This document shows positions 12,784 to 62,828 of a stretch of 64,000 nt of DNA, in pieces. Within the stretch, counting starts at the first letter, position 1; the number at the start of each line of letters is the position of its first letter. The position numbers were made by a program, and so were the translations under genes. Under the pieces are notes generated by a model, which saw only the letters and a program-made list of their open reading frames with translations, did no database searches and was not told where the DNA came from. Source of the DNA: Comamonas sp. lk (GTDB lineage: Bacteria > Pseudomonadota > Gammaproteobacteria > Burkholderiales > Burkholderiaceae_C); assembly GCA_945860595.1 (NCBI GenBank), contig CAMAQV010000008.1, positions 1 to 64,000 of the forward strand, given 5' to 3'.

Positions 12784-14160
12784 TTAAGCCGCCCATAAGG
12801 CGCGCATCGCCTGAGCAAAACCGTCGTCATCTCTCGGCGCAGTACGCACTTGCTGCCCCGCCACATACACCGCCAGCAGGGGCGCACCCGGGCTGGAGAA
12901 AACCGTAGCGTCCAATGCGCTCTCGGGTGGCACGCCGCACAGCGCGCCAGCCTCGCCATCGAGCACCACCCAGTCTGCGCGCTGACCCACGGCAATTCCC
13001 GCAAGGGGCTGGCCGCTCGCGGCCACACCACCGGCCAACGCCGCTTCAAATAAATTGGCTGCGCTGCTGGCGCTGGCGCCAAAGCCCGCGCCGATATTGC
13101 GTTGCCGCCGCTGCAGGCGCTGCCCGTATTCCAGCAGTCTCAGTTCTTCCGCCCACGCGCGCGTGACATGGCTGTCAGAGCCTATGGACCACGCGCCTCC
13201 GTGGGCCGCGTATGTCGGGTAATCAAAGATCCCGTCGCCCAGATTGGCCTCGGTGCTCGGGCACAGCACGACGTGTGCGCCGCTATCTGCCACGCCGCGC
13301 AGCTCGGCATCGGTGGTATGGGTGGCGTGCACCAGGTTCCAGCGCGGGTTCAGCGGCAGGTGTTGCAGCAGCCACTCCATCGGGCGCAAGCCGGTGTGCG
13401 CCAGGCAATCGCGCACCTCTTGCTCCTGCTCGGCGATGTGGATGTGGATGGGCAGTTGGCGCGCATCGGCCAGCGCGCTCACTTCCTGGATGGCTTGCGC
13501 ATCGGCTGCGCGAAGCGAATGGATGGCCACGCCCAGGTTGACTTTGGGCAGATCGCGGCAGGCATGTCCCAAGCCGTCCAGCAGGGCTTCGATGCGCTGC
13601 GGGCTGGACGCAAAGCGCTGCTGTTGTTCGCGCAAAACTGTCGCTTCAAAACCGGCGCGCATGTACAGCGTAGGCAAGAGCGTCATGCCTATGCCGCTGC
13701 GCTGCGCTGCGCGCACCAGCGCCATGGACATCTCCAGCGGATCACAGGCAGCCGCCCCGGTTGGGGCGTTGTGCAGGTAATGGAATTCGCAGACCTGGGT
13801 GTAGCCGCCAGCCAGCAGTTCGGTGTAGAGCCGGGTGGCAACGGCCTCGAGCTGCGCTGCGGAGATGCGCAAGGCCACGGCGTACATGCGTTCGCGCCAA
13901 CTCCAAAAATCATCGCCCTGCGCGCCGCGCTGCTCGGCCAGACCGGCCATGGCGCGCTGGAAAGCGTGGCTGTGGGCGTTGACCAAGCCGGGTAGCACAG
14001 GGCCAGCCAGCACGCGTGCATCTTGGCGAGCGCTTACGGGGACATGGCTTTGGACCGAAGACCAGTGCCCGGCGGTATCAATTTCCAGCAGCACATCGCG
14101 CGCCCAGGCACCAGCCACCCAGGCCTGCGCGGCAAAGAAGCGGCGGTTTTCAAGCGGCAT
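12784..14160 (-). CDS. hutF: Formimidoylglutamate deiminase
   Basis: This 458-residue amidohydrolase converts N-formimidoyl-glutamate to N-formylglutamate plus ammonia, the fourth step of histidine catabolism. The metal site is visible as LPGLVNAHSHAFQRAM, the histidines in HIHIAEQEQEV and NLVHATHTT, and the aspartate in SIGSDSHVTR. It is the last gene of the minus-strand hut operon and its start overlaps the end of hutG. Finding hutF and hutG together marks the five-step route ending in glutamate and formate, not the formamide route. Confidence 0.93.
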   Translation of the reverse strand: MPLENRRFFAAQAWVAGAWARDVLLEIDTAGHWSSVQSHVPVSARQDARVLAGPVLPGLVNAHSHAFQRAMAGLAEQRGAQGDDFWSWRERMYAVALRISAAQLEAVATRLYTELLAGGYTQVCEFHYLHNAPTGAAACDPLEMSMALVRAAQRSGIGMTLLPTLYMRAGFEATVLREQQQRFASSPQRIEALLDGLGHACRDLPKVNLGVAIHSLRAADAQAIQEVSALADARQLPIHIHIAEQEQEVRDCLAHTGLRPMEWLLQHLPLNPRWNLVHATHTTDAELRGVADSGAHVVLCPSTEANLGDGIFDYPTYAAHGGAWSIGSDSHVTRAWAEELRLLEYGQRLQRRQRNIGAGFGASASSAANLFEAALAGGVAASGQPLAGIAVGQRADWVVLDGEAGALCGVPPESALDATVFSSPGAPLLAVYVAGQQVRTAPRDDDGFAQAMRALWAA

Positions 14161-14950
14161 ACAAGACCTCGCAGGCGTGCAGGGCGGCTTGCAGCATGGC
14201 GCGCAGTTGCGGCTGTATGCGTCGAGCTAGATCGGGGTCATAGGCGTAGGGCGGCCTCTCGCGCATGTAAAGGTTTTGACACATCTCCAGTTGCAAGGCG
14301 TGCACCTGTGCGGCGGGTGCGCCGTAATGGCGGGTGATGTAACCGCCTTTGAAGCGGCCGTTCACCACGTGGCTGGTTTGCGGGTGGCTGGCGCAGACAT
14401 CGGCAACGACCTGCGTGATAGCCGCGTCGGCGCTGGCACCGCTGGCAGTGCCGATGTTCAGGCCGGGCAAGACGCCTTCGAACAGCCAGGGGATTTCGGA
14501 GCGGATGCTGTGCGCGTCCCACAGCAGCGCGTAGCCGTGCGTGCGGTGCAGGCGCTGTAGCTCAGCTTGTAGCGCTTGGTGGTAGGGCTCCCAATACGCG
14601 CTGCGTCGGCGGGCGCGCTCTTGCGCGTCGGGGGCACAGCCCTCGCGGTACAGAGCGTCGCCGTTGAAGAAGCGGGTGGGGCACAACTCGGTGTTGGACG
14701 CGCCGGGGTACATGGGCGCATCATCCGGCGGGCGGTTCAGGTCAATCACATAGCGGCTGAACTGCGGCTGCAGCACGCTGGCACCCAGCGCCTGCGCAAA
14801 GTCGTACAGCTGCGCCAGATGCCAGTCGGTGTCCTCCGATTCCAGCGCGCGCGGCACCAAGTGCGCCTGCATATTCGCCGGAATCTCAGTGCCGATATGC
14901 GGCATGCTGATCAGCAGGGGCAGACTGCCGGTGTGCAGGGTGAAACTCAT
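14150..14950 (-). CDS. hutG: N-formylglutamate deformylase
   Basis: The 266-residue enzyme hydrolyses N-formylglutamate to glutamate and formate, the final step of the pathway. Family motifs include [13 protein letters not shown] near the N-terminus, DLNRPPDD, and [18 protein letters not shown] chose the ATG at 14950 because it overlaps the hutI stop by four bases and gives the standard length. A longer frame to 15034 runs inside hutI. It shares an operon with hutC, hutD, hutI and hutF. Confidence 0.93.
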
Positions 14951-16161
14951 CGCAAAACTCCGGCAAAAACCACCTGACGCAGCGGGCGCGCGCCAAAGGC
15001 ATAGGCCAGTTCGGCCGGGTGCTGTACGTCCCACACAGCCAGGTCCGCGCGCATGCCCGCAGCCAGCACGCTACGGTCGTGCAGACCCAGGGCCTGCGCG
15101 GCGTGGCGCGTGACACCGGCCAGCGCTTCTTCGGGCGTGAGGCGGAACAGGGTGCAGGCCATATTGAGCATCAGCAGCAGCGAGGTGCAGGGCGAACTCC
15201 CGGGGTTGCAGTCGGTGGAAACCGCCATGGCCACACCATGCTGGCGCAGCAAATCGATGGGCGGCACACGGGTCTCGCGCAAAAAATAAAACGCGCCTGG
15301 CAGCAACACGGCCACGCTACCGGCTGCGGCCATGGCCGCAGCTCCCTCGGCGCTCAGCCATTCCAGATGGTCGCAGCTCAGCGCGCCAAAACCGGCAGCC
15401 AGTTGCGCGCCCCCGCTGTCGCTCAGTTGCTCGGCATGCAGCTTAACTGGCAATCCCAGTGCCCGCGCTGCGGTGAACACGCGGGCGGTCTGCGCCGGGC
15501 TGAAGCCGATGCGCTCGCAAAACGCATCTACCGCGTCGACCAAACCCTGCGCGTACAGGTCTGCGAGCATGGCCACAACCGTGTCGATGTAGTCGTCGCT
15601 GCGCCCGGCAAATTCGGGCGGCAGTGCGTGGGCACCCAAAAACGTGGTGTGCACGGACACCGGGTGGGTGTGCCCCAGCGCACGCGCCACCTCCAGACAA
15701 GTGCGTTCAGGCTCCAGCGCCAGCCCGTAGCCGGACTTGATCTCCACCGTGGTGACGCCTTCGGCCATCAAAGCGCGCAGGCGTGTGCTGGCAGACGCCG
15801 TGAGTTGTTCCGCGCTGGCCTGCCGCGTGGCGCGCACCGTAGAGGCAATGCCCCCGCCTTGACGGGCGATCTCTTCGTAGCTGGTGCCTTGCAGCCGCTG
15901 CTCAAATTCAGCGGCGCGGTCACCGCCGTACACCAAGTGCGTGTGGCAGTCGATCAGCCCGGGTGTGATCAGCGCGCCACCGGCATCGTGTTGCGTGATG
16001 CAGGCGCGGGCCAAATCAGGCGGCAGTTCGCTGCGCGGCCCGACCCAGCGCAATACCGGCCCGTCCAGCACCAGCGCGGCGTCGGCGATTAGGCCGTAGG
16101 GCCGGGCCGCTTGGGCCTGCATAGTGGCGGCTTGGCAATGGGTCCACAGGCTGAGGCTCAT
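14947..16161 (-). CDS. hutI: Imidazolonepropionase
   Basis: The 404-residue metal-dependent amidohydrolase opens the ring of imidazolone-5-propionate to give formimidoylglutamate. The metal-binding [16 protein letters not shown] motif, the family-specific [13 protein letters not shown] loop, [12 protein letters not shown] and the catalytic [11 protein letters not shown] region are all present. It overlaps hutD upstream and hutG downstream by four bases each, which implies tight translational coupling in the hut operon. Confidence 0.95.
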
Positions 16162-16742
16162 AGGCCAATCTCCATGAACAAGGCGTCGTCGCTGTGCACA
16201 GCAAGCGTTTGCGCGGCATCGAGCGCAGCCCAGGCCAGCGTGCCGGGCTTGAGGCTCACGGCAGCATGGTCATCAAGATAAAGCGTGGCAGGCGCGGTGT
16301 TAGCCCAGACTGCCAGCAGGTTGGGCGTCTTGACGTGCCAACGGGCCTGGCCTTTGACCCGCTGCATGCGGGTTTGCGGATGGCGCGCGCTGCGGGCCAT
16401 GAGGTTGAAGTCCTGCGTGGGACCGTCTATAAGTGTGCAGTCCACCGCCAGCGCGCCGTCAAATGCCAGTGGGCTGCTGGACGCATCCAGGCTGTGCGTC
16501 TGACCGGCGTCTGGCATGTGCAGCCGCACACCGGCACCAGCAAGCACCGCAAACCAGCGCGTGATGCCGTCAAAGCGCGAGAAGGGCCCGTCGACCTCAA
16601 CCTGCGCGACAGATAGGCGCAGCGTCCAGTCCTGCGGCGTGGGCCATGCCAGCAGTTCGCGGGTGGTGCCGCCACCGTTTTTCCAGAGCCTGGGCGGTAT
16701 GTCGGCCAGAGCGATCTGCTGCCAAACGGATGCTGTGTTCAC
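16158..16742 (-). CDS. hutD: HutD family protein
   Basis: The protein is 194 residues from the GTG at 16742, which overlaps the hutC stop in a GTGA junction. This overlap settles the start, since a longer open frame to 17231 lies entirely within hutC. The N-terminus [20 protein letters not shown] is the HutD signature, in a small bicupin-like fold. In Pseudomonas, HutD is proposed to limit over-induction of the hut genes, perhaps by sensing formylglutamate; its biochemical activity is not fixed. The position between hutC and hutI fits that role. Confidence 0.92.
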
Positions 16743-17449
16743 AACTGAAAATTCCCTTGCAGGCTGTAGCGCATACCTGGGTATACCAAGCGGCCCTGGC
16801 TGGCTACGTGTGCGCCGCTGATCGTGCAGCGGGTGATGACCAGGCAGGGTTGGCTGCCCTGTATGCCCAAGGCAGCGGCTTCCATGGCTGTGGGCAAAGC
16901 GGCTTCTATTGAGTAGCGGGCCTCGCTCAGCGGCGCGCATTGAAACAGGTACTGCGTGGGCGTGGTGTGCGCAAAGTCCACTTGCAAATAGTCGGGCGCA
17001 GCGGCCGGGTTTACGTGGCGGTCTTCGAGCTGGATGGCGATACCGTTTTCGTAATGCACCATGACCGAATGGAAGACCCGCGTGCCACGGCGCAGCCCGA
17101 GCGTCTGCGCCAGCGCGGCATCGGCCTTGACGACTTCCAGCGTCAGCACCTTGCTGCTGTGGCGGTGGCCGCGTTCCAGCACTTCTTCGTGGATGTCGCG
17201 CACCGCCAGCGTGCTGCTGATGCGGTGCCACTGCGCCACCACGGTGCCCGAGCCGCGCATGCGCGTGAGCAGCCCTTCCGCGGCGAGTTCGGTCATGGCG
17301 CGGTTGACCGTCATGCGGCTTAAGCCGAATTGCTGTTGCAGCGCGGCTTCGCTGGGAACGGCGTCGCCCGGGCGCAAGGCACCGCTGTGGATTTGCGCTT
17401 TGACAAAAGCTTTCACCTGCTCGTAAGCCGGTAGATCGGTGCTGGACAT
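16739..17449 (-). CDS. hutC: Histidine utilisation repressor (GntR family, UTRA domain)
   Basis: The 236-residue repressor has an N-terminal GntR winged helix (AYEQVKAFVKAQIHSGALRPGDAVPSEAALQQQFGLSRMTVNRAM) and a C-terminal UTRA effector domain (about residues 90-230). In the family, urocanate binding releases it from operators. The divergent promoter with hutU contains an AGTTGT-N4-ACAACT palindrome about 39 bases upstream of this start, so it probably represses itself as well as hutU-hutH. A matching operator at 27735-27750 suggests it has a second target locus in this window. Confidence 0.94.
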   Translation of the reverse strand: MSSTDLPAYEQVKAFVKAQIHSGALRPGDAVPSEAALQQQFGLSRMTVNRAMTELAAEGLLTRMRGSGTVVAQWHRISSTLAVRDIHEEVLERGHRHSSKVLTLEVVKADAALAQTLGLRRGTRVFHSVMVHYENGIAIQLEDRHVNPAAAPDYLQVDFAHTTPTQYLFQCAPLSEARYSIEAALPTAMEAAALGIQGSQPCLVITRCTISGAHVASQGRLVYPGMRYSLQGNFQL

Positions 17450-17460
17450 GGTGGCGTGGA

Positions 17461-17503
17461 GTCTCAGGGTTTTCCCGCTAGTTTACAAGTTGTATAGACA
17501 ACT
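17461..17503 (-). repeat. 43-bp promoter element, copy 1 (hutC side)
   Basis: Read on the minus strand toward hutC, this stretch aligns without gaps to 27735-27777 on the plus strand. I count 34 identical bases in the first 40. The matched parts are the operator palindrome (one difference), then TAGCGGG-AAACCCTGAG at the same distance. It indicates a shared ancestor for the two promoters. Confidence 0.75.
17488..17503. promoter_or_regulatory. HutC operator in the hutC/hutU divergent promoter
   Basis: AGTTGTATAGACAACT has perfect 6-bp arms around a 4-bp centre and contains GTATAGAC, matching the HutC-subfamily pattern GT-N-TA-N-AC. It lies 38 bases from the hutC start and 63 bases from the hutU start, well placed to control both. 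Flanking AGGGTTT (left) and AAACCCT (right) segments form an outer inverted repeat. Confidence 0.8.
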
Positions 17504-17566: not shown

Positions 17567-19285
17567 ATGAATGCATCCCTTCCCGCAGCCGCGCTGCCGC
17601 CCTTTGCCGACTCACAGGCCCGCGTGGTGCGTGCGCCGCGCGGGCCGACACTGAGCTGCGCCAACTGGCAAATCGAAGCGGCTTACCGCATGCTGCACAA
17701 CAACCTGGACCCTGAGGTGGCCGAGAACCCGGACGCGCTGGTGGTCTACGGCGGCATCGGCAAAGCGGCACGCAACTGGGCCTGTTTTGACGGAATCGCC
17801 CACAGCCTGCGCACACTGATGGCCGATGAAACCCTGCTGGTGCAAAGCGGCAAGCCGGTGGGTGTGTTCCGCACCCACACCAATGCACCCCGCGTGCTGA
17901 TTGCCAACTCCAACCTGGTGCCCAAGTGGGCGACCTGGGAGCACTTCAACGAACTCGACCGCGCCGGGCTGATGATGTACGGCCAGATGACGGCGGGCAG
18001 CTGGATTTACATCGGCTCGCAAGGCATCGTCCAGGGCACGTACGAGACCTTTGTGGAGGCCGGTCGCCAGCATTTCGGCGGCGACTTGGCTGGGCGCTGG
18101 GTGCTGACTTCCGGACTGGGCGGCATGGGCGGCGCGCAGCCTTTGGCCGCCACCTTTGCCGGAGCTTCTTCGCTGACCATCGAGTGCCAGCAAAGCAGCA
18201 TCGACTTCCGCCTGCGCACCCGCTACCTGGACAAACAGGCCGCCGACTTAGACGAGGCGTTGGCGCTGATTGCCCACCACACGGCGCGCAAAGAGGCGGT
18301 GTCGATTGGCCTGTGCGGCAACGCCGCCGAGCTGCTGCCCGAGCTGGTACGTCGCGCCAAATCCGGTGGCCCGCGCCCGGACATCGTCACCGATCAGACC
18401 TCGGCGCACGACATCATCAACGGCTACCTGCCCAGCGGCTGGAGCGTGGCGCAGTGGAAGGCAGCGCAAAAAGACCCGGCGCAACACGCTGCGCTCACGC
18501 AAGCCGCAGGCGAATCCTGCGCGGTACATGTGCGCGCGCTGCTGGACTTCCATGCCATGGGCATCCCCACCGTGGACTACGGCAACAACCTGCGCCAGGT
18601 GGCCAAAGACTACGGCGTGGCCAATGCCTTTGACTACCCCGGTTTTGTGCCGGCCTATGTGCGGCCCATGTTTTGTAAAGGCATTGGCCCCTTCCGCTGG
18701 GTGGCGCTGAGCGGCGACCCTGAGGACATCCGCAAGACCGACGCCAAGATGAAAGAACTGTTTCCCCACAACGCCGGTTTGCTGCGCTGGTTGGATATGG
18801 CGGGCGAGCGGATTGCGTTCCAGGGCCTGCCCGCGCGCATCTGCTGGATTGGCCTGGGCGAGCGGCATCTGGCCGGACTGGCTTTCAACGAGATGGTGCG
18901 CACGGGCGAACTCAAGGGCCCTATCGTCATCGGACGCGACCATCTGGACAGCGGGTCTGTGGCCTCGCCCAACCGCGAGACCGAGGCCATGCAAGATGGT
19001 TCCGACGCAGTCAGTGACTGGCCGCTGCTCAATGCCTTGCTCAACACCGCCAGTGGCGCGACCTGGGTCAGTATCCACCACGGCGGTGGCGTGGGCATGG
19101 GCTACAGCCAACACAGCGGTGTGGTGATCGTCGCCGACGGCACGCCCGAGGCCGCTGAGCGCTTGAAACGCGTGCTCTGGAACGACCCCGCCACCGGCGT
19201 CATGCGCCACGCGGATGCGGGCTACGCGATTGCCGAGCAATGCGCCCGCGAGCAGGGCCTGAACCTGCCCATGAAAGCCCGCTGA
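17567..19285 (+). CDS. hutU: Urocanate hydratase
   Basis: The 572-residue cytosolic enzyme uses tightly bound NAD to convert urocanate to imidazolone propionate. Characteristic stretches are [35 protein letters not shown] for NAD binding, and the C-terminal [15 protein letters not shown]. The length is slightly above the usual 555-560 because of an extra N-terminal segment. It heads the plus-strand hut operon behind the HutC operator and is followed by hutH after a single base. Confidence 0.95.
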
Positions 19286-19286
19286 G

Positions 19287-20837
19287 ATGCGCAGCGCCAT
19301 CACCATCACCCCCGGCGCACTGACGCTGGAGCAGCTGATGGCGATCCACGCCGATACCGTGTCGCTGCAACTGATAGACGCCAGCCGCGCGGCCATCCGC
19401 GCCAGCCAGCAGGTGGTGCAAAACGCCGCGGATGGTGACGCGCCGGTTTACGGTGTGAACACCGGTTTTGGCAAACTGGCCAATCAGCGCATCAGCAAGT
19501 CGCAACTGGCCACGCTGCAGCTCAACCTGATCCGCTCGCACTGCGTGGGCGTGGGCGAGCCGCTGCAGCCTGCCGTGATGCGCCTGATGCTGGCGCTCAA
19601 GGCGGCCAGCCTGGCGCGCGGTTATTCCGGCGTGCGCGAGGTGGTGATTGATACCTTGATGGCTGTTTACAACGCCGGGCTGGTGCCCTGGGTTCCGTCC
19701 AAAGGCTCGGTGGGCGCATCGGGTGATCTCGCGCCGCTGGCGCACATGACGCTGGCGCTGATGGGCGAGGGCTTCATGCTGGTTCATGGTGCGCCGGTTC
19801 CCGCGCTGGGGGCTTTGCAAGCTGCAGGTATTGCGCCGCTGGTTCTCGGGCCCAAAGAAGGCCTGGCCTTGATCAACGGTACGCAAACATCCGCCGCGCT
19901 GGCCCTGCATGCGCTCTTGGTGTTCGAGCCGGTGCTGGAAGCCGCGCTGGTCATTGGTGCGCTGACGATTGACGCCGCACGCGGCAGCGACGGCCCGTTT
20001 GACCCGCGCATCCACGCGCTGCGCGGGCAGCCCGGCCAGATTGATGTGGCCCAGTATTACCGCGCGCTGCTGGCGGGTAGCGAAATCCGTCACTCGCACT
20101 TGCACGGCGATGACCGGGTGCAAGACCCGTATTGCCTGCGCTGCCAACCGCAGGTGGTGGGTGCCTGTTTAGACCAGCTGCGCCACGCCGCGCGGGTTCT
20201 GCTGATAGAGGCCAATGCAGTGACCGACAACCCGCTGGTTTTTGCGGAAGACCAGGCCATGCTCTCAGGCGGCAATTTCCACGCTGAACCCGTAGCTTTG
20301 GCTGCTGACGGTATGGCGCTGGCGATTGCCGAAGTGGGCGCGATTGCCGAGCGCCGCATCGCTATGCTGATTGATAGTAGCGTCTCGCGCCTGCCGCCGT
20401 TTTTGACCGAGGACGCGGGCCTGAACAGCGGCTTCATGATTGCGCATGTCACGGCTGCGGCCCTGGCCTCGGAGAACAAATCGCTGGCGCATCCAGCCAG
20501 TGTGGACAGCCTGCCCACCAGCGCCAACCAGGAAGACCATGTGTCCATGGCCACGTTTGCAGCGCGCCGTCTGCAGGCCATGGTGGACAACACCGCGCAT
20601 ATTCTGGGCATCGAGTTACTCGCAGCTGCCCAAGGCATTGATTTTTTGCGGCCCTTGCACAGCTCACCTGTGTTGGAGCAGGTGCACGCGCTGCTGCGCC
20701 AGCAGGTTCCGAAAATGCAGCAAGACCGTTATCTCGCGCCCGACATCGCCCATGCCACGGCGCTGGTGCGGGATGGTTCGCTGGCACGGCTGTTGCAACC
20801 AATCGCGGGTTTACCCCTGCTGTGGACCCCGGCCTGA
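19287..20837 (+). CDS. hutH: Histidine ammonia-lyase
   Basis: The 516-residue enzyme deaminates histidine to urocanate, the first step of the pathway. The Ala-Ser-Gly triad that cyclises to the MIO cofactor is in GSVGASGDLAPLAHM. VYGVNTGFGKLA and the C-terminal QEDHVSMATFAARR are also family hallmarks. It is co-transcribed with hutU. Because this enzyme makes the inducer urocanate, the operon self-amplifies when histidine is present. Confidence 0.95.
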   Translation: MRSAITITPGALTLEQLMAIHADTVSLQLIDASRAAIRASQQVVQNAADGDAPVYGVNTGFGKLANQRISKSQLATLQLNLIRSHCVGVGEPLQPAVMRLMLALKAASLARGYSGVREVVIDTLMAVYNAGLVPWVPSKGSVGASGDLAPLAHMTLALMGEGFMLVHGAPVPALGALQAAGIAPLVLGPKEGLALINGTQTSAALALHALLVFEPVLEAALVIGALTIDAARGSDGPFDPRIHALRGQPGQIDVAQYYRALLAGSEIRHSHLHGDDRVQDPYCLRCQPQVVGACLDQLRHAARVLLIEANAVTDNPLVFAEDQAMLSGGNFHAEPVALAADGMALAIAEVGAIAERRIAMLIDSSVSRLPPFLTEDAGLNSGFMIAHVTAAALASENKSLAHPASVDSLPTSANQEDHVSMATFAARRLQAMVDNTAHILGIELLAAAQGIDFLRPLHSSPVLEQVHALLRQQVPKMQQDRYLAPDIAHATALVRDGSLARLLQPIAGLPLLWTPA

Positions 20838-20992
20838 AGCCTGTTTTCTTCGGATACCCAACCGTATACTTTGAAAGGACGCGCCATAGACACCATATCC
20901 AACGCCCCCTTTCGAAGTTCCTCTGGGGCCCGGTCTCATTCCTGACCGTGCCAATCGCTGATTCCCTGTTTCTTTTTTGATTGGAGTTCACC

Positions 20993-21817
20993 ATGAGCAA
21001 ACGGCTAGTACTGAAAACCCTTTTGGGCGTATCCCTGGCATTGGGCCTGGCAATGGGCGCACAGGCGCAAGACGCGCTGGCACGCACCAAAGCGTCCGGC
21101 GTCCTGAAAATCGGCACCGAGACCGCTTTCGCACCTTTCGATTTCATCGACGCTGGCACGCATGTGGGCCTCAACATGGACCTGATGAACGAGGTCGCTA
21201 AAGAGATGGGTGTGAAAACCGAATGGACCGCATTGCCTTGGGAAGGCGTGTTGCCCGGCCTGGAGGCGAAAAAATTTGACATGGTGACCGGTCCGGTGAC
21301 CATTACCAAGGCCCGCATGGAGCGTTACCGCTTCACGCCCCCCATCGCCGAGGCCACCGTAGCTTTGCTCAAGCGCAAGGGTGACAAGACGGTGATGAAG
21401 CCCGAAGACATTGCCGGTAAACCGGTCGGTGGTGGTAAGGCTTCGGCCCAGTTGGCGCAGCTGAAAACCTTTGCGGAGAGCCTGGGCAAAGCCGATGTGC
21501 GCGAGTACCCCGGCAACAACGAAGCCTATGCCGATCTGGCCGCCGGGCGTATCGTGGCAGTGGGCAATTCGCTGCCCAACATCAGCTATGTGGCGCAACA
21601 GCGCTCCGATACCTTTGAGGTGGTCAAGCCCGCGTTTGGCTTGAAGACCTACTTTGGCTATGTGGCTCGCAAAGATGATGACTCGGCCAAGTTGATGGAC
21701 GCCATCACCGCCGCCATGCTGAAGATCAAGGGCGACGGACGCCTGGCCAAAATCCAGAAAAAATGGTTTGGCGATTCGTTTGATACGCCGGATTCCGTGC
21801 CGAACCCGGCTCTGTAA
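20993..21817 (+). CDS. Polar amino-acid ABC transporter substrate-binding protein, probably histidine or urocanate
   Basis: The 274-residue family-3 periplasmic binding protein has a signal peptide (residues 1-23, ending in GAQAQ). The ligand-binding fold is shown by GVLKIGTETAFAPFDFID and ALPWEGVLPGLEAKKFDMVTGPVTIT. The ATG at 20993 has GGAG nine bases upstream. An in-frame start at 20981 would add only four residues. It lies 155 bases after hutH on the same strand, which suggests uptake of the hut substrate. The spacer shows no HutC-type palindrome, so it may depend on read-through or its own promoter. Confidence 0.85.
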   Translation: MSKRLVLKTLLGVSLALGLAMGAQAQDALARTKASGVLKIGTETAFAPFDFIDAGTHVGLNMDLMNEVAKEMGVKTEWTALPWEGVLPGLEAKKFDMVTGPVTITKARMERYRFTPPIAEATVALLKRKGDKTVMKPEDIAGKPVGGGKASAQLAQLKTFAESLGKADVREYPGNNEAYADLAAGRIVAVGNSLPNISYVAQQRSDTFEVVKPAFGLKTYFGYVARKDDDSAKLMDAITAAMLKIKGDGRLAKIQKKWFGDSFDTPDSVPNPAL

Positions 21818-21836
21818 TCGTAGCGATGCCAATGAA

Positions 21837-21868
21837 GAAACCGCGCCCGCAAGGCGCGGTTTCTCTTT
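21837..21868 (+). terminator. Intra-operon hairpin between binding protein and permease genes
   Basis: GAAACCGCGCC and GGCGCGGTTTC form a perfect 11-bp stem around the loop CGCAA, followed by TCTTT. It starts 19 bases after the binding-protein stop. The short T-tail suggests partial termination or 3-prime-end protection, keeping the binding protein in excess of the membrane subunits. Confidence 0.7.
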
Positions 21869-21892
21869 GATCAACACTGCCCCTAGAACCCC

Positions 21893-22534
21893 GTGTCCTG
21901 GAAACTTTTCTTCCTTCTGGTTAAGGCCTGCGGGCTGACCATTGCCATCAGCGCGGTTTCCATCGTGCTCGGTTTGGTGATCGGCACCCTGGTATCGGGC
22001 GCCATGCTCTCGCGCAATCCCTATGTATCCTGGAGCGGTCGCACCTTCGTCAGTTTTTTCCGTGGCTCGCCGCTGTTGGTGCAGCTACTCTTGATTTACA
22101 ACCTGCTGCCCGTACTGGGGCTGAATGTGCCCAGCCTGGTGGCAGCGGTGGTCGGTTTGGCTTTGTGCGATGCCGCCTACCAGGCTGAAAACATGCGCGG
22201 CGGCCTGACCAGCATCCCGCGTGGTTTGCTGGAGGCTGCCGATATGCTGGGCCTGAGCCCCGCGCAGCAGTTCTGGCGCATCAAGGTGCCCATCGCTTTG
22301 CGCCTCACGCTGCCCGCGCTCGTGAGCGAAGCGATCATGATTGTCAAAGCCTCTTCGCTGGTGTCGGTGGTCGGCGTGATTGAGCTGACCCGCATGGCGC
22401 AAGATTTGGCGGCCAGCACCTTCCGGCCCTTGGAGTTGTTTGCCGCAGCGGGCTTTTTGTACTTTGTGACCAACTGGGTCTTATCGCGCTTGGGACGCAG
22501 GCTGGAGCGCTCGTTCAGCTGGGGTATCCGATGA
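21893..22534 (+). CDS. Amino-acid ABC transporter permease (HisM/GltK type)
   Basis: The 213-residue inner-membrane subunit has the polar amino-acid permease pattern: RTFVSFFRGSPLLVQLLLIY near the N-terminus and the EAA loop RGLLEAADMLGLSPAQQFWRIKVP that contacts the ATPase. It starts with GTG, with only a weak ribosome site, 24 bases after the hairpin. It overlaps the second permease by four bases, and the two probably form a heterodimer. Confidence 0.87.
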   Translation: MSWKLFFLLVKACGLTIAISAVSIVLGLVIGTLVSGAMLSRNPYVSWSGRTFVSFFRGSPLLVQLLLIYNLLPVLGLNVPSLVAAVVGLALCDAAYQAENMRGGLTSIPRGLLEAADMLGLSPAQQFWRIKVPIALRLTLPALVSEAIMIVKASSLVSVVGVIELTRMAQDLAASTFRPLELFAAAGFLYFVTNWVLSRLGRRLERSFSWGIR

Positions 22535-23199
22535 TTATTGATTTCACCCACATCATCGAGCAGCTGCCCGAGTTGGTGCGCTCTATGGGCGTGACGCTGG
22601 CGATCTGGCTGGTCGGTACGGTAGGTGCCGTGGTGCTGGGATTTTTTGTCACGCTGGGTTTGCGCTTTGGCGCTTCGCCGCTGCGCTGGCTGCTGCACGC
22701 TTACGTAGAAGTCATCCGTGGTACGCCTTTTTTGATCCAGTTGTTTTTGCTTTATTACGGCGGGCCTTTCATCGGTATTGCGCTGGACCCCATGCCTGCG
22801 GGTTTGTTCGGTGTGACGGTGTATGGGGCGGCCTACTTCAGCGAAATTTTCCGCGCCGGGTTTGATGCGATTCCGCGCGGCCATGTAGAGGCGGCGCAGT
22901 GTCTGGGGCTGACCCGCTGGCAAACCATATTCCGTATTGAGGTGCCCGAGATGACGATGCTGGTTTTGCCCCCGGCTGTGAATATGACAGTGATCTTGCT
23001 CAAGGAGACAGCGGTGCTGTCCATCATCACCGTGCCGGAGCTGACCTTTTTGATGCAGGCCATCGGTTCCCAGCAATACGCTTTTGTCGAAGCCATGGCG
23101 GTGCTGGCCTGTTTTTACTGGGCCATGGTTTCCGTGGCCGGACGCATCGGCGCGGCCTTGGAAAAACGGCTCGCCACATTCACCTTCGCCCACACATGA
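22531..23199 (+). CDS. Amino-acid ABC transporter permease
   Basis: The 222-residue partner permease has VEVIRGTPFLIQLFLLYYG and the EAA loop RGHVEAAQCLGLTRWQTIFRIEVPE. It starts in an ATGA overlap with the first permease and overlaps the ATPase gene by four bases, so all three are translationally coupled. It forms the transmembrane pore of the importer whose binding protein is encoded at 20993. Confidence 0.88.
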   Translation: MIIDFTHIIEQLPELVRSMGVTLAIWLVGTVGAVVLGFFVTLGLRFGASPLRWLLHAYVEVIRGTPFLIQLFLLYYGGPFIGIALDPMPAGLFGVTVYGAAYFSEIFRAGFDAIPRGHVEAAQCLGLTRWQTIFRIEVPEMTMLVLPPAVNMTVILLKETAVLSIITVPELTFLMQAIGSQQYAFVEAMAVLACFYWAMVSVAGRIGAALEKRLATFTFAHT

Positions 23200-24005
23200 C
23201 TGCAACACACTCTTCCCTCCGCCCGGCGATTTCGGTACGCGGTGTCAGCAAGCGTTTCGGCTCGATCGAAGTCCTGCACGGCATTGACCTGGACATTCCC
23301 AACGGCCAGGTGACTTGCGTCATCGGCCCTTCGGGCTCCGGCAAAAGCACGCTGTTGCGCTGCATGGCTTTTTTGGAAGAAGCCACAGAGGGCACCATTC
23401 TGATCAACGGTGAGCCGCTGGGTTTTTCACAAGAAGCTGGTGCCGCGCGCGTGCGCCTATCGCCCCAGCGCATCCGCGAAGTCCGCTCGCATATCGGCAT
23501 GTGCTTTCAGCAGTTCAACCTGTGGCCGCACATGACGGCGCTGGGCAATGTGAGCGAGGCGCTGAAAACCGCGCGCGGTGTGCCCAAAGCACAGGCCGAA
23601 GAGCGCGCCATGGCGCAGTTGCGCAAAGTGGGCTTGGAAGACCGTGCCGGGCATTACCCCTCGCAGCTCTCGGGCGGGCAACAGCAGCGCGTGGCGATTG
23701 CCCGCGCCCTGGCTTGCGAGCCCAAAATCATGCTGTTTGATGAGCCCACCTCGTCACTGGACCCGGAGCTGACCGGCGAAGTGCTCAAGGTCATGCGCGA
23801 CCTGGCCGCCGACGGCATGACCATGGTGGTGGTGTCGCACGAGATCGGCTTTGCCGCCTCGGTGGCGAACCGCATCACTTTTTTGGACGAAGGCAAACTG
23901 CTGCTGCAAGGCACGCCCGCCGAAGTATTCGGCAAACCGCGCCATCCCAGGCTGGATCAGTTTTTGGACACCTATCTGGACCGGGGTGCGGCGATGCTGG
24001 TGTAG
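23196..24005 (+). CDS. Amino-acid ABC transporter ATP-binding protein (HisP/GlnQ type)
   Basis: The 269-residue ATPase has Walker A GPSGSGKST, the Q-loop CFQQFNLWPHMT typical of the polar amino-acid subfamily, signature LSGGQQQR, Walker B IMLFDEPTSSLDPE and the switch histidine VVSHEIGF. It is the last gene of the transporter operon. A 28-base gap separates it from the convergent FAD-oxidase gene. Confidence 0.92.
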   Translation: MTATHSSLRPAISVRGVSKRFGSIEVLHGIDLDIPNGQVTCVIGPSGSGKSTLLRCMAFLEEATEGTILINGEPLGFSQEAGAARVRLSPQRIREVRSHIGMCFQQFNLWPHMTALGNVSEALKTARGVPKAQAEERAMAQLRKVGLEDRAGHYPSQLSGGQQQRVAIARALACEPKIMLFDEPTSSLDPELTGEVLKVMRDLAADGMTMVVVSHEIGFAASVANRITFLDEGKLLLQGTPAEVFGKPRHPRLDQFLDTYLDRGAAMLV

Positions 24006-24033: not shown

Positions 24034-25431
24034 CTATTCGTTAAACACTTTCCCCGGATTCATCAGCCCCCGCGGGTCCAGCAGCGCTTTGACTTGCGCC
24101 ATCGCGGCCAGTTTGCCGTCATCCGTGGTGTCGTTCATGGCGCCAATGCGCTTGGAGCCTACGCCGTGTTCAGCTGAGAACGAGCCGCCCATGGCGCGCA
24201 GATCGCGGTACAGGATGTGCTCGACCGCCTGCGCTTGTTCGGGCGGCAGCGGGCCGCTGGCGTTGAGGATGATGTGCAGGTTGCCGTCGGCCAGGTGGCC
24301 GAAGATGTAGGGCTGCCAGGCCGGGTCGTAATGCGCCAGTTCGACCTGCACCTGCGCGGCGTAGGCGGAAATGCGCGACAGCGGCACCGAGACATCGTAG
24401 GAGGGCGCGGCTGGGTGCGCGCGGTACACGATATCGGTGTCTTCGCGCAGCCGCCACAGCGCTTCTTCTTGGCGCGCGGAGCTGGCGATGATGCCCGTGG
24501 TGCCGGGGTGGCGCGCTTCGGTTTCCTCGAACAGGATCTCGAATGCAGCGCGCAGGCGGTCTTCGTGCGCGCCGCCGAGTTTGAGCAGCAGGTACATGGG
24601 CTGGTCCAGCGCAAAACCGTCTTCGTGCCAGCGCAAGGCTTGCGCGTTGAGCTGCATGAAACCCGCCCACAGCGCCTCGGCCGCGCGCAAATGGCCGGCG
24701 TCAATTTGCAGCGCGCGGGCAATCACGTCCAGCGTGGCTTCCACCGAGGGCAGACCGAACAGCGCGGTGGCCGATGCGGGTGGCAGGGGGTCGAGCTTAA
24801 TCACCAGCCGGGTCACCACGCCCAGCGTGCCTTCGGCGCCGATGAACAAATGCTTCAGGTCGTAACCGGCCGAGTTCTTAACCACCCGGGTCAGGTCCTG
24901 GAACACGCTGCCGTCGGGTAGCACGGCTTCGAGGCCCAGCACGCGGTGGCGCATCACGCCATTGCGAAAAGCCATGACGCCGCCCGCATTGGTGGACACC
25001 ATGCCGCCCAGCGTGGCCGAGCCGCGCGCGGCCAGGTCGATGCCGGGCTCCAGCTGGTGCAGCGCCGCCGCTTCTTGCAGCGCCTGCAGGGTGCAGCCCG
25101 CGCCCACCAGCGCTACGCGTTCGGCCGGATCTATGGGCCCTATCTGGTTCAGACGCAAAAGCGACAGCACGATTTGCCCGGCTTGTGAGGTACTGCCCCC
25201 CACCAGGCCTGTGCGCCCCGCTTGCGGCACCAAGCTGACGCCGTGTTGCGCGCACAGGCGAACGACCTGCGCGACTTGGGCGGTGCTGTCGGGGGAGACG
25301 ACGATGCCGGCGTCCAGGTTGTGCGGATTCCAGCCCACGTCCAGCAGCTTGACCGCCTCGCCAGTGGCGACATGGGCTGCGCCGACTGCCGCGCGCAAGC
25401 TGTCCAGTAGTTCCTTGGGCAGGGTTTGCAT
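24034..25431 (-). CDS. FAD-binding oxidase, GlcD / D-2-hydroxyacid dehydrogenase family
   Basis: The 465-residue flavoenzyme has the PCMH-type FAD domain: GIVVSPDSTAQVAQVVRLC, then LVPQAGRTGLVGGS and ARGSATLGGMVSTNAGG. The C-terminal cap ends with GGSFSAEHGVGSKRIG, typical of D-lactate/glycolate/2-hydroxyglutarate dehydrogenases. The ATG at 25431 gives the family N-terminus; a longer frame lies in the upstream gene. It is the last gene of the Rieske-aminotransferase-oxidase operon. A 2-hydroxyacid such as imidazole-lactate would make sense next to a HisC-like enzyme, but this is inference. Confidence 0.87.
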   Translation of the reverse strand: MQTLPKELLDSLRAAVGAAHVATGEAVKLLDVGWNPHNLDAGIVVSPDSTAQVAQVVRLCAQHGVSLVPQAGRTGLVGGSTSQAGQIVLSLLRLNQIGPIDPAERVALVGAGCTLQALQEAAALHQLEPGIDLAARGSATLGGMVSTNAGGVMAFRNGVMRHRVLGLEAVLPDGSVFQDLTRVVKNSAGYDLKHLFIGAEGTLGVVTRLVIKLDPLPPASATALFGLPSVEATLDVIARALQIDAGHLRAAEALWAGFMQLNAQALRWHEDGFALDQPMYLLLKLGGAHEDRLRAAFEILFEETEARHPGTTGIIASSARQEEALWRLREDTDIVYRAHPAAPSYDVSVPLSRISAYAAQVQVELAHYDPAWQPYIFGHLADGNLHIILNASGPLPPEQAQAVEHILYRDLRAMGGSFSAEHGVGSKRIGAMNDTTDDGKLAAMAQVKALLDPRGLMNPGKVFNE

Positions 25432-25442
25432 GGCTTGTTGCC

Positions 25443-26561
25443 TCAGCGTGGGTTGAGCACAGCCAGTGCGGCAAGCAGGCGGTCGTTGTCCTGCGCGCTG
25501 CCGATGGTGGCGCGCATGAAACGCTCGTAGCCGGCTTCGCGCCAGGCTTTGACGATGATGCCCTGGCGCAAGAGCGCAGCCGCTTGTTCGGCGCTGTCGC
25601 TGCGGCATTCAAAGAACAGGAAGTTGGTTTGCGAATCGGCCACGCGCAGGCCCAGCGCCTTGACAGCCGCCGCGACCCGCGCACGCTCGGTACGCAGCCG
25701 CGCCACCGAGGCGCGCATCCAGGCCTCATCTTCCAGCGCGGCCAATGCGGCGAGTTGCGCTGCGGCATTCACGTTGAACGGTGTTTTGGCCGAGCCCATG
25801 ACCCGCGCGATCTCGGCGTCTGAACACACGGCGTAACCCACCCGCAAACCGGCCAGCCCATAGGCCTTGGAAAACGTACGCAGCACCACAAACCGCAGGC
25901 CGCTGGCCTTGAGTAATTCCAGGCCGTCCACGCTGCCCGGGTCGGCGTATTCGAAATAAGCCTCATCCAGCACCAGCAGGCTGCCGGGTTGCACCGCTGC
26001 GAGCACGCGGCGCAAATCCGCTTCGCTCAGCGCCGGTCCCACCGGGTTCCAGGGCGATGACAAAAATACGATGCTGGGCGCTGCGGCCATGGCGCGCTCG
26101 AGCGCGTCCAGGTCAAAGCCGAAGTTTGCGGTCATCGGCAGCTTGAGGACGGTGGCGCCGATGGCCAGCGGCTCGATCTCATGCAGGCCGAAGCTCGGTA
26201 CCACGGTGAGCACCTGCTTGCCTTGCACGAGCATGGCGCGTGAGACGGCGGCGATCATTTCTTCCGAGCCATTGCCCACCACGATCTGCGCCGCGTCCAC
26301 GCCCAAACGCGTTGCCAGCGCCGCGCGCAAGGCGGTGCAAGCGGGGTCGGCGTAGCGCCAGGGCTCGAACGCGCTGGAGGCCAGCGCCTGCATCACGCGG
26401 GGGGAGCAGCCCTCGGGGTTTTCGTTGCTGGCCAGGCGGGCAATGTCGTCGCGGCCCGAGGCGGCGCGTGCAATCGCCACATTGGTGCCCGCGTTATAAG
26501 GCGGCAGCGCGGCCACATGGGGGTTGAACGCCAGGCCCGTGGCCTCTTGATGGGCGCTCAA
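25443..26561 (-). CDS. HisC-like PLP aminotransferase (histidinol-phosphate aminotransferase family)
   Basis: The 372-residue class I/II aminotransferase has ARLASNENPEG at the N-terminus, SSPWNPVGP, VLDEAYFEY and the PLP lysine in RTFSKAYGLAGLRVGY. It starts with TTG in a TTGA overlap with the Rieske gene, and no ATG is available before the conserved region. Histidine biosynthesis genes are absent here, and the operon partners are catabolic oxygenases. It is therefore probably a paralog acting on histidine or an imidazole-pyruvate-type substrate, not the biosynthetic HisC. Confidence 0.83.
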   Translation of the reverse strand: MSAHQEATGLAFNPHVAALPPYNAGTNVAIARAASGRDDIARLASNENPEGCSPRVMQALASSAFEPWRYADPACTALRAALATRLGVDAAQIVVGNGSEEMIAAVSRAMLVQGKQVLTVVPSFGLHEIEPLAIGATVLKLPMTANFGFDLDALERAMAAAPSIVFLSSPWNPVGPALSEADLRRVLAAVQPGSLLVLDEAYFEYADPGSVDGLELLKASGLRFVVLRTFSKAYGLAGLRVGYAVCSDAEIARVMGSAKTPFNVNAAAQLAALAALEDEAWMRASVARLRTERARVAAAVKALGLRVADSQTNFLFFECRSDSAEQAAALLRQGIIVKAWREAGYERFMRATIGSAQDNDRLLAALAVLNPR

Positions 26562-27652
26562 GCGACTTGCTCCGGGTGGATGGCGATGGTGCGCGCACCG
26601 GCCTGTGCGTGTGCCTGCGCCTGAGCCTGTACCTGCGATTGTTCTTCGGCAATCAGCTGCGCCATGGCGCGGCGAAAGCGCGTGGGACCCAGGTCAATTT
26701 TCAGGCCGATGGGCGGCACAGCGGCGCGGTCTATGCCTTTTTGCACGGCTTCCAAAATGACCTTGTCTTCCGCGAACGCAAAGCGCACGGAGGCGGTGAA
26801 TTGGCGTGAAATGTCGGCGTCACCGGGCGCAAAGTTGCGCATCTGGAACCAGTAGTAGCGGGTATGTGTTTCGTCCACCGGCGTCATGAAGTTGTAGCTG
26901 TCCATGATGAAGCCGTCCGGGTGCAGGGGCCGGTCGTCGCCGCCCGTGCCTGCGGGTACAAAGATGGCCTTGATGTAGGCGTGGCTGGGAAAGCGCACTT
27001 CGTATTGCTGCTTGCGGTCGCAGCTGCCCTTGAACTTCAGGAAGGGCACGTAAAACGGCGCGGGCTCCACGTTGCGCATCCAGCGCGAAACGGTGACACC
27101 GTTATCGGCCACGGTGGTGTCCATCGGTGTGTCTTCGCAGGCGGCATTGCCAAACGAGCCTTGGTGCACCCAGGACACGTGCGAAGGGTCGAGCAGGTTG
27201 TCGGTGATGTGCAGGTAGTTACAGGCCATGTCGATGGCCTCGCCCTGGTTGCAGCCCCATCCGGGATCGTCCCAATGGGGAATCTGGTGGATCGTGGCCG
27301 GGTCAGCGCGCTGGGCCTCGCCCATCCAGATCCACAGCAGGCCGTAGCGCGCATGCAAAGGATAGGCGCGCACACGGGCGCCCGGCGGTATCTGGCTCAT
27401 TCCGGGCACTTTGACGCAGCTGCCGCTGCAATCGAAAGTCAGCCCGTGGTAACCGCATTCAAGGTGGTCGCCCTGGATGCGGCCCAGCGAGAGCGGCAAT
27501 TTGCGGTGGGGACAGGCGTCTTCCAGGGCGGCGGGGCGGCCGTCGGATTGGCGGTAGAGCACGATGTCTTCGCCCAGCACGCGCACGGCCAAGGGCTTCT
27601 CGCCGAGCTCCCGGTCCCACGCGGCGATGTACCAGGTGTTGCGCAAAAACAT
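26558..27652 (-). CDS. Rieske [2Fe-2S] aromatic-ring/demethylating oxygenase (VanA-like)
   Basis: The protein is 364 residues from the ATG at 27652, which has GGAG upstream; an in-frame TTG at 27670 is less likely. The Rieske cluster motif is CPHRKLPLSLG...CGYHG (C-x-H and C-x2-H). The mononuclear iron site is LLDPSHVSWVHQ. The N-terminus FLRNTWYIAAWDREL is typical of vanillate O-demethylase-like oxygenases, many of which remove O- or N-methyl groups. No dedicated reductase is in the operon. It is the first gene of the minus-strand operon and shares a divergent promoter, with a HutC-like operator, with the dioxygenase at 27803. Confidence 0.87.
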   Translation of the reverse strand: MFLRNTWYIAAWDRELGEKPLAVRVLGEDIVLYRQSDGRPAALEDACPHRKLPLSLGRIQGDHLECGYHGLTFDCSGSCVKVPGMSQIPPGARVRAYPLHARYGLLWIWMGEAQRADPATIHQIPHWDDPGWGCNQGEAIDMACNYLHITDNLLDPSHVSWVHQGSFGNAACEDTPMDTTVADNGVTVSRWMRNVEPAPFYVPFLKFKGSCDRKQQYEVRFPSHAYIKAIFVPAGTGGDDRPLHPDGFIMDSYNFMTPVDETHTRYYWFQMRNFAPGDADISRQFTASVRFAFAEDKVILEAVQKGIDRAAVPPIGLKIDLGPTRFRRAMAQLIAEEQSQVQAQAQAHAQAGARTIAIHPEQVA

Positions 27653-27734
27653 GGTGCTGGCTCCAATCAAACAGGGGTAAACCCCGAGATGCGGGGTGCT
27701 TCACAATGGCTGCAAAAGGCCCGCGTTCCAGTAT

Positions 27735-27750
27735 AGTTGTCTAGACAACT
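27735..27750. promoter_or_regulatory. HutC-like operator between Rieske oxygenase and dioxygenase genes
   Basis: AGTTGTCTAGACAACT is a perfect 16-bp palindrome with the same arms as the hutC/hutU operator. Its core GTCTAGAC fits GT-N-TA-N-AC. It lies 82 bases from the Rieske start and 52 bases from the dioxygenase start. No GntR gene is adjacent, so HutC at 16739-17449 is the obvious candidate binder. Confidence 0.7.
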
Positions 27751-27777
27751 TGCGGCATAGCGGGGAAACCCTGAGCG
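27735..27777 (+). repeat. 43-bp promoter element, copy 2 (dioxygenase side)
   Basis: This stretch matches the hutC leader (17461-17503, minus strand) over the operator and over TAGCGGG-AAACCCTGAG downstream of it, at identical spacing. Conservation outside the palindrome suggests a duplicated promoter, not only a shared binding site. Confidence 0.75.
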
Positions 27778-27802: not shown

Positions 27803-28606
27803 ATGCTTGATCAGCAGACCCTCACAGCTTACCAACAGGACGGTGCCGCGGTGCTGCGCAACGTCATCAGCCTGGCGTGGATTGAGCGCCTGCGCGAGGG
27901 AGTGGAGCAGAACCTGCGCGAGCCCGGTCCCTACGCCAAGCACTACACGCCCGCCGGCAATCCGGGCATGTTTTTTGGTGATTACTGCAATTGGGAGCGG
28001 ATTGAGCCCTACCGGGACTTCTTTTTCCACTCCAACGCCAGCGCGCTGGCCGCCGAGTTGATGGGTTCGCCCAAAGTCAATCTGTACCACGAGCATGTGC
28101 TGGTGAAAGAGCCGGGTACCAAAGAGCGCACGCCCTGGCACCATGACCAGCCCTACTACCCGATCGATGGCAAAGACATCGTCAGCCTGTGGATTCCGCT
28201 GGACCCGGTGGAAAAAAACACCTGCGTGGAGTTCATTGCCGGCTCCCACGCCTGGGGCCGCTGGTTCACGCCGGCGCGCTTTGTAGACCAGAAAACCCAC
28301 ACCACCGCCCAGGACAGCCGTTTTGAGCCGCCGCCCGATTTCGAGGCCGAGCGGGCCCAGCACCGTGTTTTGCAGTGGCAACTTGCGGTGGGTGACTGCA
28401 TCGCCTTCCATGGCCTGACGGTGCACGGCGCGCCGGAGAACGCCAGCAGCCATCGCAGGCGGGCTTTTTCGGCGCGTTTTACCGGGGCCGATGCCCGCTT
28501 TGTTTTGCGTAACGGCTTTATGTCGCCTCCGCCACCGGCCCGTGGCGGGCCGCAGCCCGGCGCGGTCATGGACAGCGCGGCATTCCCGGTTTTGCAGGCC
28601 GCCTGA
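27803..28606 (+). CDS. Phytanoyl-CoA dioxygenase family protein
   Basis: This 267-residue Fe(II)/2-oxoglutarate oxygenase has the iron motif H-x-D in RTPWHHDQPYYP and the distal histidine in FHGLTVHGAP, followed by an RRAFSARF arginine region likely to bind 2-oxoglutarate. It differs clearly from the EctD-like paralog at 8504. It is monocistronic on the plus strand, divergent from the Rieske operon, with the HutC-like operator upstream. The substrate is unknown; an imidazole or N-methyl compound is inferred from context. Confidence 0.85.
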   Translation: MLDQQTLTAYQQDGAAVLRNVISLAWIERLREGVEQNLREPGPYAKHYTPAGNPGMFFGDYCNWERIEPYRDFFFHSNASALAAELMGSPKVNLYHEHVLVKEPGTKERTPWHHDQPYYPIDGKDIVSLWIPLDPVEKNTCVEFIAGSHAWGRWFTPARFVDQKTHTTAQDSRFEPPPDFEAERAQHRVLQWQLAVGDCIAFHGLTVHGAPENASSHRRRAFSARFTGADARFVLRNGFMSPPPPARGGPQPGAVMDSAAFPVLQAA

Positions 28607-52701: not shown

Positions 52702-52739
52702 GGGGATATCGTCCGGTTCATTGGGGGCTCACGTGGGTC

Positions 52740-62207: not shown

Positions 62208-62228
62208 GCCGGTGGCTAAAATGATTCG

Positions 62229-62828
62229 ATGTCCGGCGATTCTGCACCCACCAATCTCACCAACCATTTTCTGATTGCCATGCCCGGCATGGAAGATGCC
62301 TTTTTTGCGAAGAGTGTGGTGTACCTGGTGGACCACAACGACCAAGGCGCGATGGGGCTGATGATCAACAAGGCGGTGGATATCTCGATGGAGGCGCTGT
62401 TTGTCAAGATCGATCTGGCCATGCCCCGCACCGATTTGGCCGCCAGCCCCGTCTTGCAGGGTGGCCCGGTGCACCAGGACCGCGGTTTTGTGCTGCACGA
62501 CCCGGTGTTCGGGTCCAGCGAACCGGAGCAGGCCTCTCCCTACCAATCGACCATCCGCGTACCCGGTGGTCTGGATATGACGACGTCGCGCGATGTGCTG
62601 GAGTCCATTTCCACCGGCGGCGGCCCCAAGCGGGTTTTGGTCTCGCTGGGCTATGCGGCCTGGGGCGAAGGCCAGTTGGAAAGCGAACTCAAAGAAAACG
62701 CCTGGCTGACGGTGGAGGCGGACGCCAGCGTCATTTTTGACGCGCCCATGGCCGAGCGCTATGACCGGGCCCTGGGGCTGCTGGGTTTGCAAGCCTGGAT
62801 GATTTCCACCCAGGCGGGCAACGCATGA
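62229..62828 (+). CDS. YqgE/AlgH family protein
   Basis: The 199-residue conserved protein shows the family pattern LTNHFLIAMPGMEDAFFAKSVVYLVDHNDQGAMGLMIN and VLVSLGYAAWGEGQLESELKENAWL. The biochemical function is not established. It overlaps ruvX by four bases, the usual arrangement. Confidence 0.94.
   Translation: MSGDSAPTNLTNHFLIAMPGMEDAFFAKSVVYLVDHNDQGAMGLMINKAVDISMEALFVKIDLAMPRTDLAASPVLQGGPVHQDRGFVLHDPVFGSSEPEQASPYQSTIRVPGGLDMTTSRDVLESISTGGGPKRVLVSLGYAAWGEGQLESELKENAWLTVEADASVIFDAPMAERYDRALGLLGLQAWMISTQAGNA

Follow-up and report, generated by a model that had tools for sequence, protein, structure and literature searches.

Why should an operator of the type recognised by HutC, the repressor of the histidine utilization (hut) genes, stand in front of a Rieske oxygenase operon? 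The question is raised by a window of 64,000 nucleotides, the whole stretch of DNA analysed here (contig CAMAQV010000008.1 of Comamonas sp. lk, positions 1 to 64,000), in which a putative HutC-type operator, AGTTGTCTAGACAACT (27735..27750, no strand assigned), occupies the divergent promoter region of a Rieske oxygenase gene and a PhyH-family dioxygenase gene. In Pseudomonas, HutC is released from its operator by urocanate. A preliminary description of the element had proposed that HutC also controls both of these divergent genes.

Gene Organization of the Extended hut Locus

The genes are ordered hutF-G-I-D-C / hutU-H / ABC transporter / FAD oxidase, HisC-like aminotransferase, Rieske / PhyH, and by this order the Rieske/PhyH operator lies within an extended hut locus and not outside it, as had been stated. 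The minus strand carries hutI, hutG and hutF (12784..16161) and the repressor gene hutC (16739..17449), whose product matches TIGR02018 with 280.5 bits against a cut-off of 220. The plus strand carries hutU and hutH (17567..20837) and an amino-acid ABC transporter composed of a binding protein, two permeases and an ATPase (20981..24005), which is perhaps of the HisXYZ type predicted for Comamonadaceae in the available text of PMC5343134. Convergent to the transporter are three genes of the minus strand: a GlcD / D-2-hydroxyacid dehydrogenase-like FAD-linked oxidase (24034..25437, the start being placed from the reach of some orthologs), a HisC-family aminotransferase (25443..26561), one of two proteins that the genome has above the HisC cut-off, and a Rieske oxygenase that carries a VanA_C domain (26558..27652, with the ATG start at 27652 preferred over a TTG at 27670). 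The gene for the PhyH-family Fe/2-oxoglutarate dioxygenase (27803..28606, plus strand), whose nearest solved relative is MysH, is divergent from the Rieske gene.

Operator and Promoter Architecture

A second putative operator of the same type, AGTTGTATAGACAACT (17488..17503, no strand assigned), is found at the hutC/hutU divergent promoter, and a check of the window sequence placed both palindromes where the preliminary description had put them. The gap-free alignment of 27735-27777 with the minus strand of 17461-17503 was likewise recovered, with 34 of 43 bases identical, while the reported count of about 34 in the first 40 bases is in fact 33. The next best place in the window reaches 23 identical bases, and in 200 Markov-1 shuffled windows the best match averaged 23.5 with a maximum of 26, so that a chance origin of the match between the two promoters was ruled out.

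The exact sequence GTTGTNTANACAAC occurs only twice in the 2.80-Mb genome, at the hutC/hutU and Rieske/PhyH promoters, and its sole copy with one mismatch lies inside an ORF that, judged by eye, seems to encode a sugar epimerase. When up to two mismatches are allowed, 32 forward matches are obtained genome-wide against 48 for the reversed control, so that weaker operator-like sites are at chance level; a HutC regulon extending beyond the two promoters was looked for genome-wide and none was seen. In the window, a search with three mismatches returned 12 matches against 11.5 expected, only the two perfect sites standing out, and a two-mismatch site at 46233-46248 was treated as chance. The fit of 27735-27750 to the HutC-subfamily pattern was confirmed: a core GTCTAGAC is flanked by AGTT/AACT arms, and the site conforms to the subfamily consensus NyGTMTAKACNy given in the accessible part of PMC4494728. 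The footprinted Pseudomonas core TGTA-N2-TACA, as it appears in the accessible part of PMC12977541, resembles TGTC-TA-GACA here, although two positions differ.

The likeness between the two promoters is not limited to the palindrome. An upstream block, CAGGGTTTCCCCGCT (27759..27773, minus strand), reads as a putative activator box towards the Rieske gene, and the same block, CAGGGTTTTCCCGCT (17465..17479, plus strand), reads towards hutU. The neighbouring block described earlier at matching spacing could be verified, as CAGGGTTTNCCCGCT is present exactly twice genome-wide, at the same two promoters as the operator. Towards hutU and towards the Rieske gene alike, the elements follow in the order CTCAGGGTTTTCCCGC, 9 bases, AGTTGTNTANACAACT and then, in most rows, ATACT/ACACT. 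The composite of block, operator and TATACT thus has the same orientation towards hutU and towards the Rieske operon. The TATACT at 27730..27735 (minus strand), the putative -10 of the Rieske promoter, touches the operator; in fact, the final base of the operator makes up TATACT/TACACT with the five that follow it, and this is likely a -10 element. A scan for consensus sigma-70 promoters returned none at either the hutC/hutU or the Rieske/PhyH site. Because the operator abuts the putative -10, bound HutC would cover the promoter spacer, and the block, centred near -43 relative to this -10, would occupy a typical activator position. On the other side, the operator at 27735-27750 ends 52 bases before the PhyH start codon and the composite element faces away from PhyH. 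In the Rieske leader, a terminator-like hairpin, CGGGGTTTACCCCTG (27672-27686, minus strand), was also noticed, which by eye recurs in G016 and in none of the other relatives printed.

Conservation of the Operator in the Close Clade

Among the 101 genomes of the relatives set, ten (the window's own and nine others) carry a Rieske gene at ~84-96% identity, and 22 more at <=43%. One or two exact operators stand upstream of the Rieske gene in all ten, and none was found at the other 20 Rieske loci fetched from this set. Together with L070 and L079, which come from an organism-named scan and have one site each, these genomes make up a clade of 12 members (Rieske gene at >= ~84% identity), all of them with Rieske-linked operators. 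Two sites exactly 66 bp apart are found in eight members, and a single one in the window, G016, L070 and L079. The palindrome is intact in every member, the adjoining 9-base spacer varies, and the palindrome variants seen stay within the HutC consensus. The upstream block is present in 10 of the 12 Rieske promoters, being absent in L070 and L079, and the second, PhyH-side operator of the members with two sites is devoid of it. As the 12 members are closely related, their agreement represents one evolutionary event.

From the consensus fit, the conservation throughout the clade and the orientation of the composite element, control of the Rieske operon by HutC, as read from the sequence, is well supported; of the two targets originally proposed, the PhyH gene is a plausible one only.

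The window, L054, L055, L061 and L079 preserve the whole order from hutC to PhyH, and L062 and L070 preserve it from hutU onwards; the remaining five clade loci are cut by contig ends, and extra ORFs are inserted in some relatives. Small ORFs that by eye resemble toxin-antitoxin modules were observed in L054 (7276-8232), L057 (3962-5730), L059 (346-2114), L061 (8207-9048) and L062 (5062-5834), where they either separate the FAD oxidase gene from the transporter or directly follow it; the window has none there.

A search of the 101 genomes for the exact motif gave 36 occurrences, spread over 16 genomes, against four in four genomes for the reversed control, and 35 of the 36 are at hut or Rieske/PhyH promoters, the remaining one being in G096. 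The exact motif was rejected as the general HutC operator of the genus, a hutC match (1e-50) being present in 40 of the 101 genomes and the motif in 16: more distant hutC genes (50-53%) are accompanied by operator variants such as ACATGTCTAGACAAGT, and G031 (hutC 71%) has sites with one and two mismatches. The draft assembly of G010 yielded neither a hut site nor hutC. As near relatives bearing hutC and lacking the Rieske gene, G005 and G057 proved invalid controls owing to contig breaks, inside permA and inside PhyH in G005, whereas the G057 contig ends in hutU. Better controls are G003, G015 and G048: their hutC genes are 72-73% identical, both hutU and hutC have sites, and the only Rieske match at E 1e-40 or better, one of 35%, is in G048. 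The hutU promoters of these three genomes and of G031 (L168, L167, L166 and L169, respectively) carry a perfect palindrome, GGGTTAACCC, where the block would be, and some regulator of hut promoters in the genus perhaps binds there.

Orthologous Loci Outside the Clade

Outside the clade, 28 orthologous Rieske loci at 64-68% identity were compared, their neighbours being identified by tblastn. A divergent LysR gene is present in 27 of them and a flavin/ferredoxin reductase gene directly downstream of the Rieske gene in 23, with the aminotransferase in 19 and the FAD oxidase in 18; family scans confirm the LysR assignment in L082, L083, L085, L086 and L089, and for the reductase they do so in L082, L083, L085 and L091. 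A cultured organism with the LysR version is Mesorhizobium ciceri WSM1271 (L099). The exact HutC site is found at none of 30 orthologous loci (these 28 together with L080 and L081, at 77%), two-mismatch matches being present upstream only at L082 and L089; moreover, neither hut genes nor the aminotransferase appear in the DNA fetched for L080 and L081. The expectation that the palindrome would track orthologous loci is therefore borne out in 12 of 12 close orthologs and fails at all 30 loci of 64-77% identity. A single Rieske relative from viral contigs, L150, is also without the site.

In the clade, conversely, the LysR gene is missing from all 11 members that can be assessed for it (L073 stops 302 bp upstream), and an adjacent reductase is likewise missing from all 11 that can be assessed (L107 stops at the Rieske gene), the best reductase matches elsewhere in the genome being weak (28-31% identity). 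The operator, its clade-wide conservation, the composite promoter, the gene order and the missing LysR and reductase genes can all be read directly from the DNA. Because both genes of the outside loci are missing in the clade, HutC control of the Rieske operon looks like a lineage-specific exchange of regulator, from LysR to HutC.

A second lineage is represented by L082, which keeps the LysR gene and has a HutC only 31% identical to that of the window. There, a 14-mer, ATAATGTATAGACA, containing GTATAGAC, is common to the hutH-hutC gap and the Rieske promoter, and sharing of this length or longer arose in 3 of 5000 shuffled pairs; as judged from sequence, L082 supports the link between HutC and Rieske genes as one independent case. 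Hut promoters accompanied by a HutC of the L082 type mostly have ATGT/ACAT flanks, not TTGT/ACAA. HutC-type palindromes, ATGTATATACAT, were additionally observed in L083 (6478) and L137 (6492) ahead of an operon that encodes a HisXYZ-like transporter and has a HutC of its own; that of L083 is also upstream of a divergent CoA-transferase / acyl-CoA dehydrogenase pair, and both loci carry the Rieske cluster.

Relation to Known HutC Systems

The operator motif and the role of HutC are already known, as the available texts of PMC4494728, PMC12977541 and PMC5343134 attest. The regulons treated in the accessible part of PMC5343134 (Leyn et al., 2016) comprise hut enzymes, HutD, the histidine biosynthesis operon and transporters, with operators in Comamonadaceae that serve hut genes as well as a HisXYZ-type ABC transporter. 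The proteobacterial regulons thus share with the present locus the hut and perhaps the HisXYZ-type targets, but the regulon section of that paper mentions neither Rieske nor aminotransferase, FAD oxidase or PhyH genes, all of which are present here. As far as the available text of PMC12977541 goes, HutC represses hut in Pseudomonas through a palindromic operator at Phut with the core cited above, likewise palindromic here, and the further targets tested are of low affinity and many of them virulence-linked; here, unlike in Pseudomonas, a perfect palindrome that belongs to the hut locus and precedes a catabolic operon is the additional predicted target. The accessible part of PMC12772324 gives no HutC motif. 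In the literature searched, partly in excerpt and with subscription papers, RegPrecise tables and supplements outside the search, nothing was found that joins HutC or methylhistidine to a Rieske gene. On sequence grounds the locus adds a conserved oxygenase operon to the HutC regulon, and it offers a clear case of apparent regulator exchange from LysR to HutC with new operators in place.

Enzyme Families and Proposed Function

The Rieske protein scores above the cut-offs of PF00355 (82 bits) and PF19112 (166.5 bits), and its CPH, CGYH, DPSHVSWVH and EDK segments align with DdmC; the Rieske CxH/CxxH motif and the facial-triad residues are present among them. The Rieske and VanA_C domains are common to oxygenases of the VanA/DdmC type (DdmC match 1.3e-45, PDB 7qwt 1.3e-49), from which the protein differs in its linkage to hut genes and, in the clade, where assessable, in the absence of an adjacent reductase. 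In a midpoint-rooted tree, to which a long-branch warning applies, it falls in a group of 55 rows (support 100/99) apart from 9 distant rows. The solved relatives include the demethylases DdmC, NdmA and NdmB and also the hydroxylase SxtT, and the top PDB match, 7qwt, carries no functional name, so that demethylation remains putative.

Within fetched flanks of up to 10 kb a side, often shorter, hut enzyme genes lie near Rieske loci outside the clade in 5 of 28 cases at 64-68% identity (the other 23 showing none in the fetched DNA), in 3 of 20 at 49-60% and in 0 of 20 at 34-42%. In L121, L122, L123 and L127 the Rieske gene is close to hutU, and neither aminotransferase nor FAD oxidase appears in the fetched DNA, an arrangement which suggests that the Rieske product enters hut directly; L082, whose contig ends 1.5 kb downstream, was excluded from this argument. 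The aminotransferase scores 292.9 with TIGR01141 (cut-off 276.55) and 413 with PRK05166 (cut-off 540) and is encoded outside the his operon. The other HisC copy of the genome lies by eye within hisD-hisC-hisB-hisH, and thus the enzyme at 25443..26561 is probably catabolic. The PhyH protein shares its domain with the Fe/2-oxoglutarate dioxygenase MysH (7.5e-35), and its gene here adjoins hut genes. Its dedication to hut is only partly supported, as homologues of 41-44% also stand beside unrelated genes (transporter or CoA genes). A 43% homologue directly follows hutH in another genome of the genus (L190, 8771-9580) and one lies near hutH in L191; the L190 case suggests that hut may have gained a dioxygenase of this family on more than one occasion.

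We consider it likely that 27735-27750 is a HutC operator and that the Rieske operon, repressed by HutC and induced by urocanate, feeds a histidine derivative into histidine catabolism; that HutC binds and represses, that urocanate induces, and what the enzymes act on are all matters that we infer here. HutC would sit on this site and block the Rieske-aminotransferase-FAD oxidase operon, probably also the divergent PhyH gene, until urocanate lifted the block, as at hutU. The operon would be a feeder branch of histidine catabolism, in which the Rieske enzyme would demethylate a histidine derivative, imidazole-lactate would become histidine by way of imidazole-pyruvate, with the FAD oxidase and the HisC-like aminotransferase as catalysts, and the resulting histidine would be degraded by HutH and HutU; the earliest urocanate to appear would further induce the hut and Rieske operons. 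For the Rieske substrate, N-methylhistidine is the best single guess, at somewhat less than even chances. Methylhistidines come from actin and muscle dipeptides, and literature searches turned up no bacterial Rieske enzyme for them. A fuller scheme is more tentative: a bacterial N-methylhistidine pathway might unite a Rieske demethylase subfamily with a D-2-hydroxyacid dehydrogenase and a HisC paralogue of catabolic function, together recovering histidine from methylated histidine and from its keto and hydroxy acids; it would be widespread under LysR and, in a clade of Comamonadaceae, captured by HutC and induced by its own downstream product urocanate. An uncharacterised oxygenase operon that appears to be under HutC control suggests an unstudied route feeding modified histidine into the normal histidine pathway, and it gives a testable substrate class for the Rieske group of Mesorhizobium, Paraburkholderia, Aureimonas, Rhodobacteraceae and others.

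Alternative Explanations

The chances are about even that HutC controls the operon while the substrate is another imidazole compound, such as imidazole-lactate, histidine betaine or a modified urocanate, or merely a co-regulated amino acid. Methylhistidine is deduced from family and context only, and hydroxylases occur among the Rieske relatives; furthermore, a second Rieske gene is found at some loci of Paraburkholderia (L085, L087, L097), and an amidohydrolase and a HisJ/ArgT-like binding protein besides in L085. For methylhistidine speak the demethylases DdmC and NdmA/NdmB, and the arrangement in L121, L122, L123 and L127, which favours direct delivery of a hut substrate.

Two other readings dispute the role of the site or the identity of its ligand. 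The operator could be a relic of a duplication of the hutC/hutU promoter that regulates nothing important, and a likeness that reaches past the palindrome to the block and the -10 is what a copied promoter would leave; this is improbable, however, given a palindrome intact in all 12 clade members beside a varying spacer, variants confined to the HutC consensus, and a second exact copy kept 66 bp away in eight of them. It is very unlikely that another GntR-family regulator uses the palindrome: the genome encodes eight GntR-like proteins matching TIGR02018, seven of them below the cut-off, but the hutC product alone exceeds it, and the same palindrome stands at hutC/hutU. HutC types only 31% identical, moreover, differ in the operator flanks of the hut promoters that accompany them, and in this genome a HutC gene and the same palindrome at its own hut promoter are both present, in agreement with HutC as the regulator.

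Other Genes in the Window

Adjoining hut, the segment 7827-12756 encodes a GntR/FCD regulator followed by an ectoine-hydroxylase-like PhyH protein, a DRL-type oxidoreductase, a questin-oxidase-like protein and a threo-3-hydroxyaspartate ammonia-lyase, possibly a second catabolic operon; three genes of this set are also found beside hutF in G005. Two neighbouring genes at 50128-54914 resemble those of cyanophycin synthetases, with Cyanophycin_syn and ATP-grasp domains and, in one of them, Mur ligase domains as well, and a photolyase/cryptochrome gene at 60678-62879 has about 230 residues ahead of the photolyase domain, unless its start was called too early.
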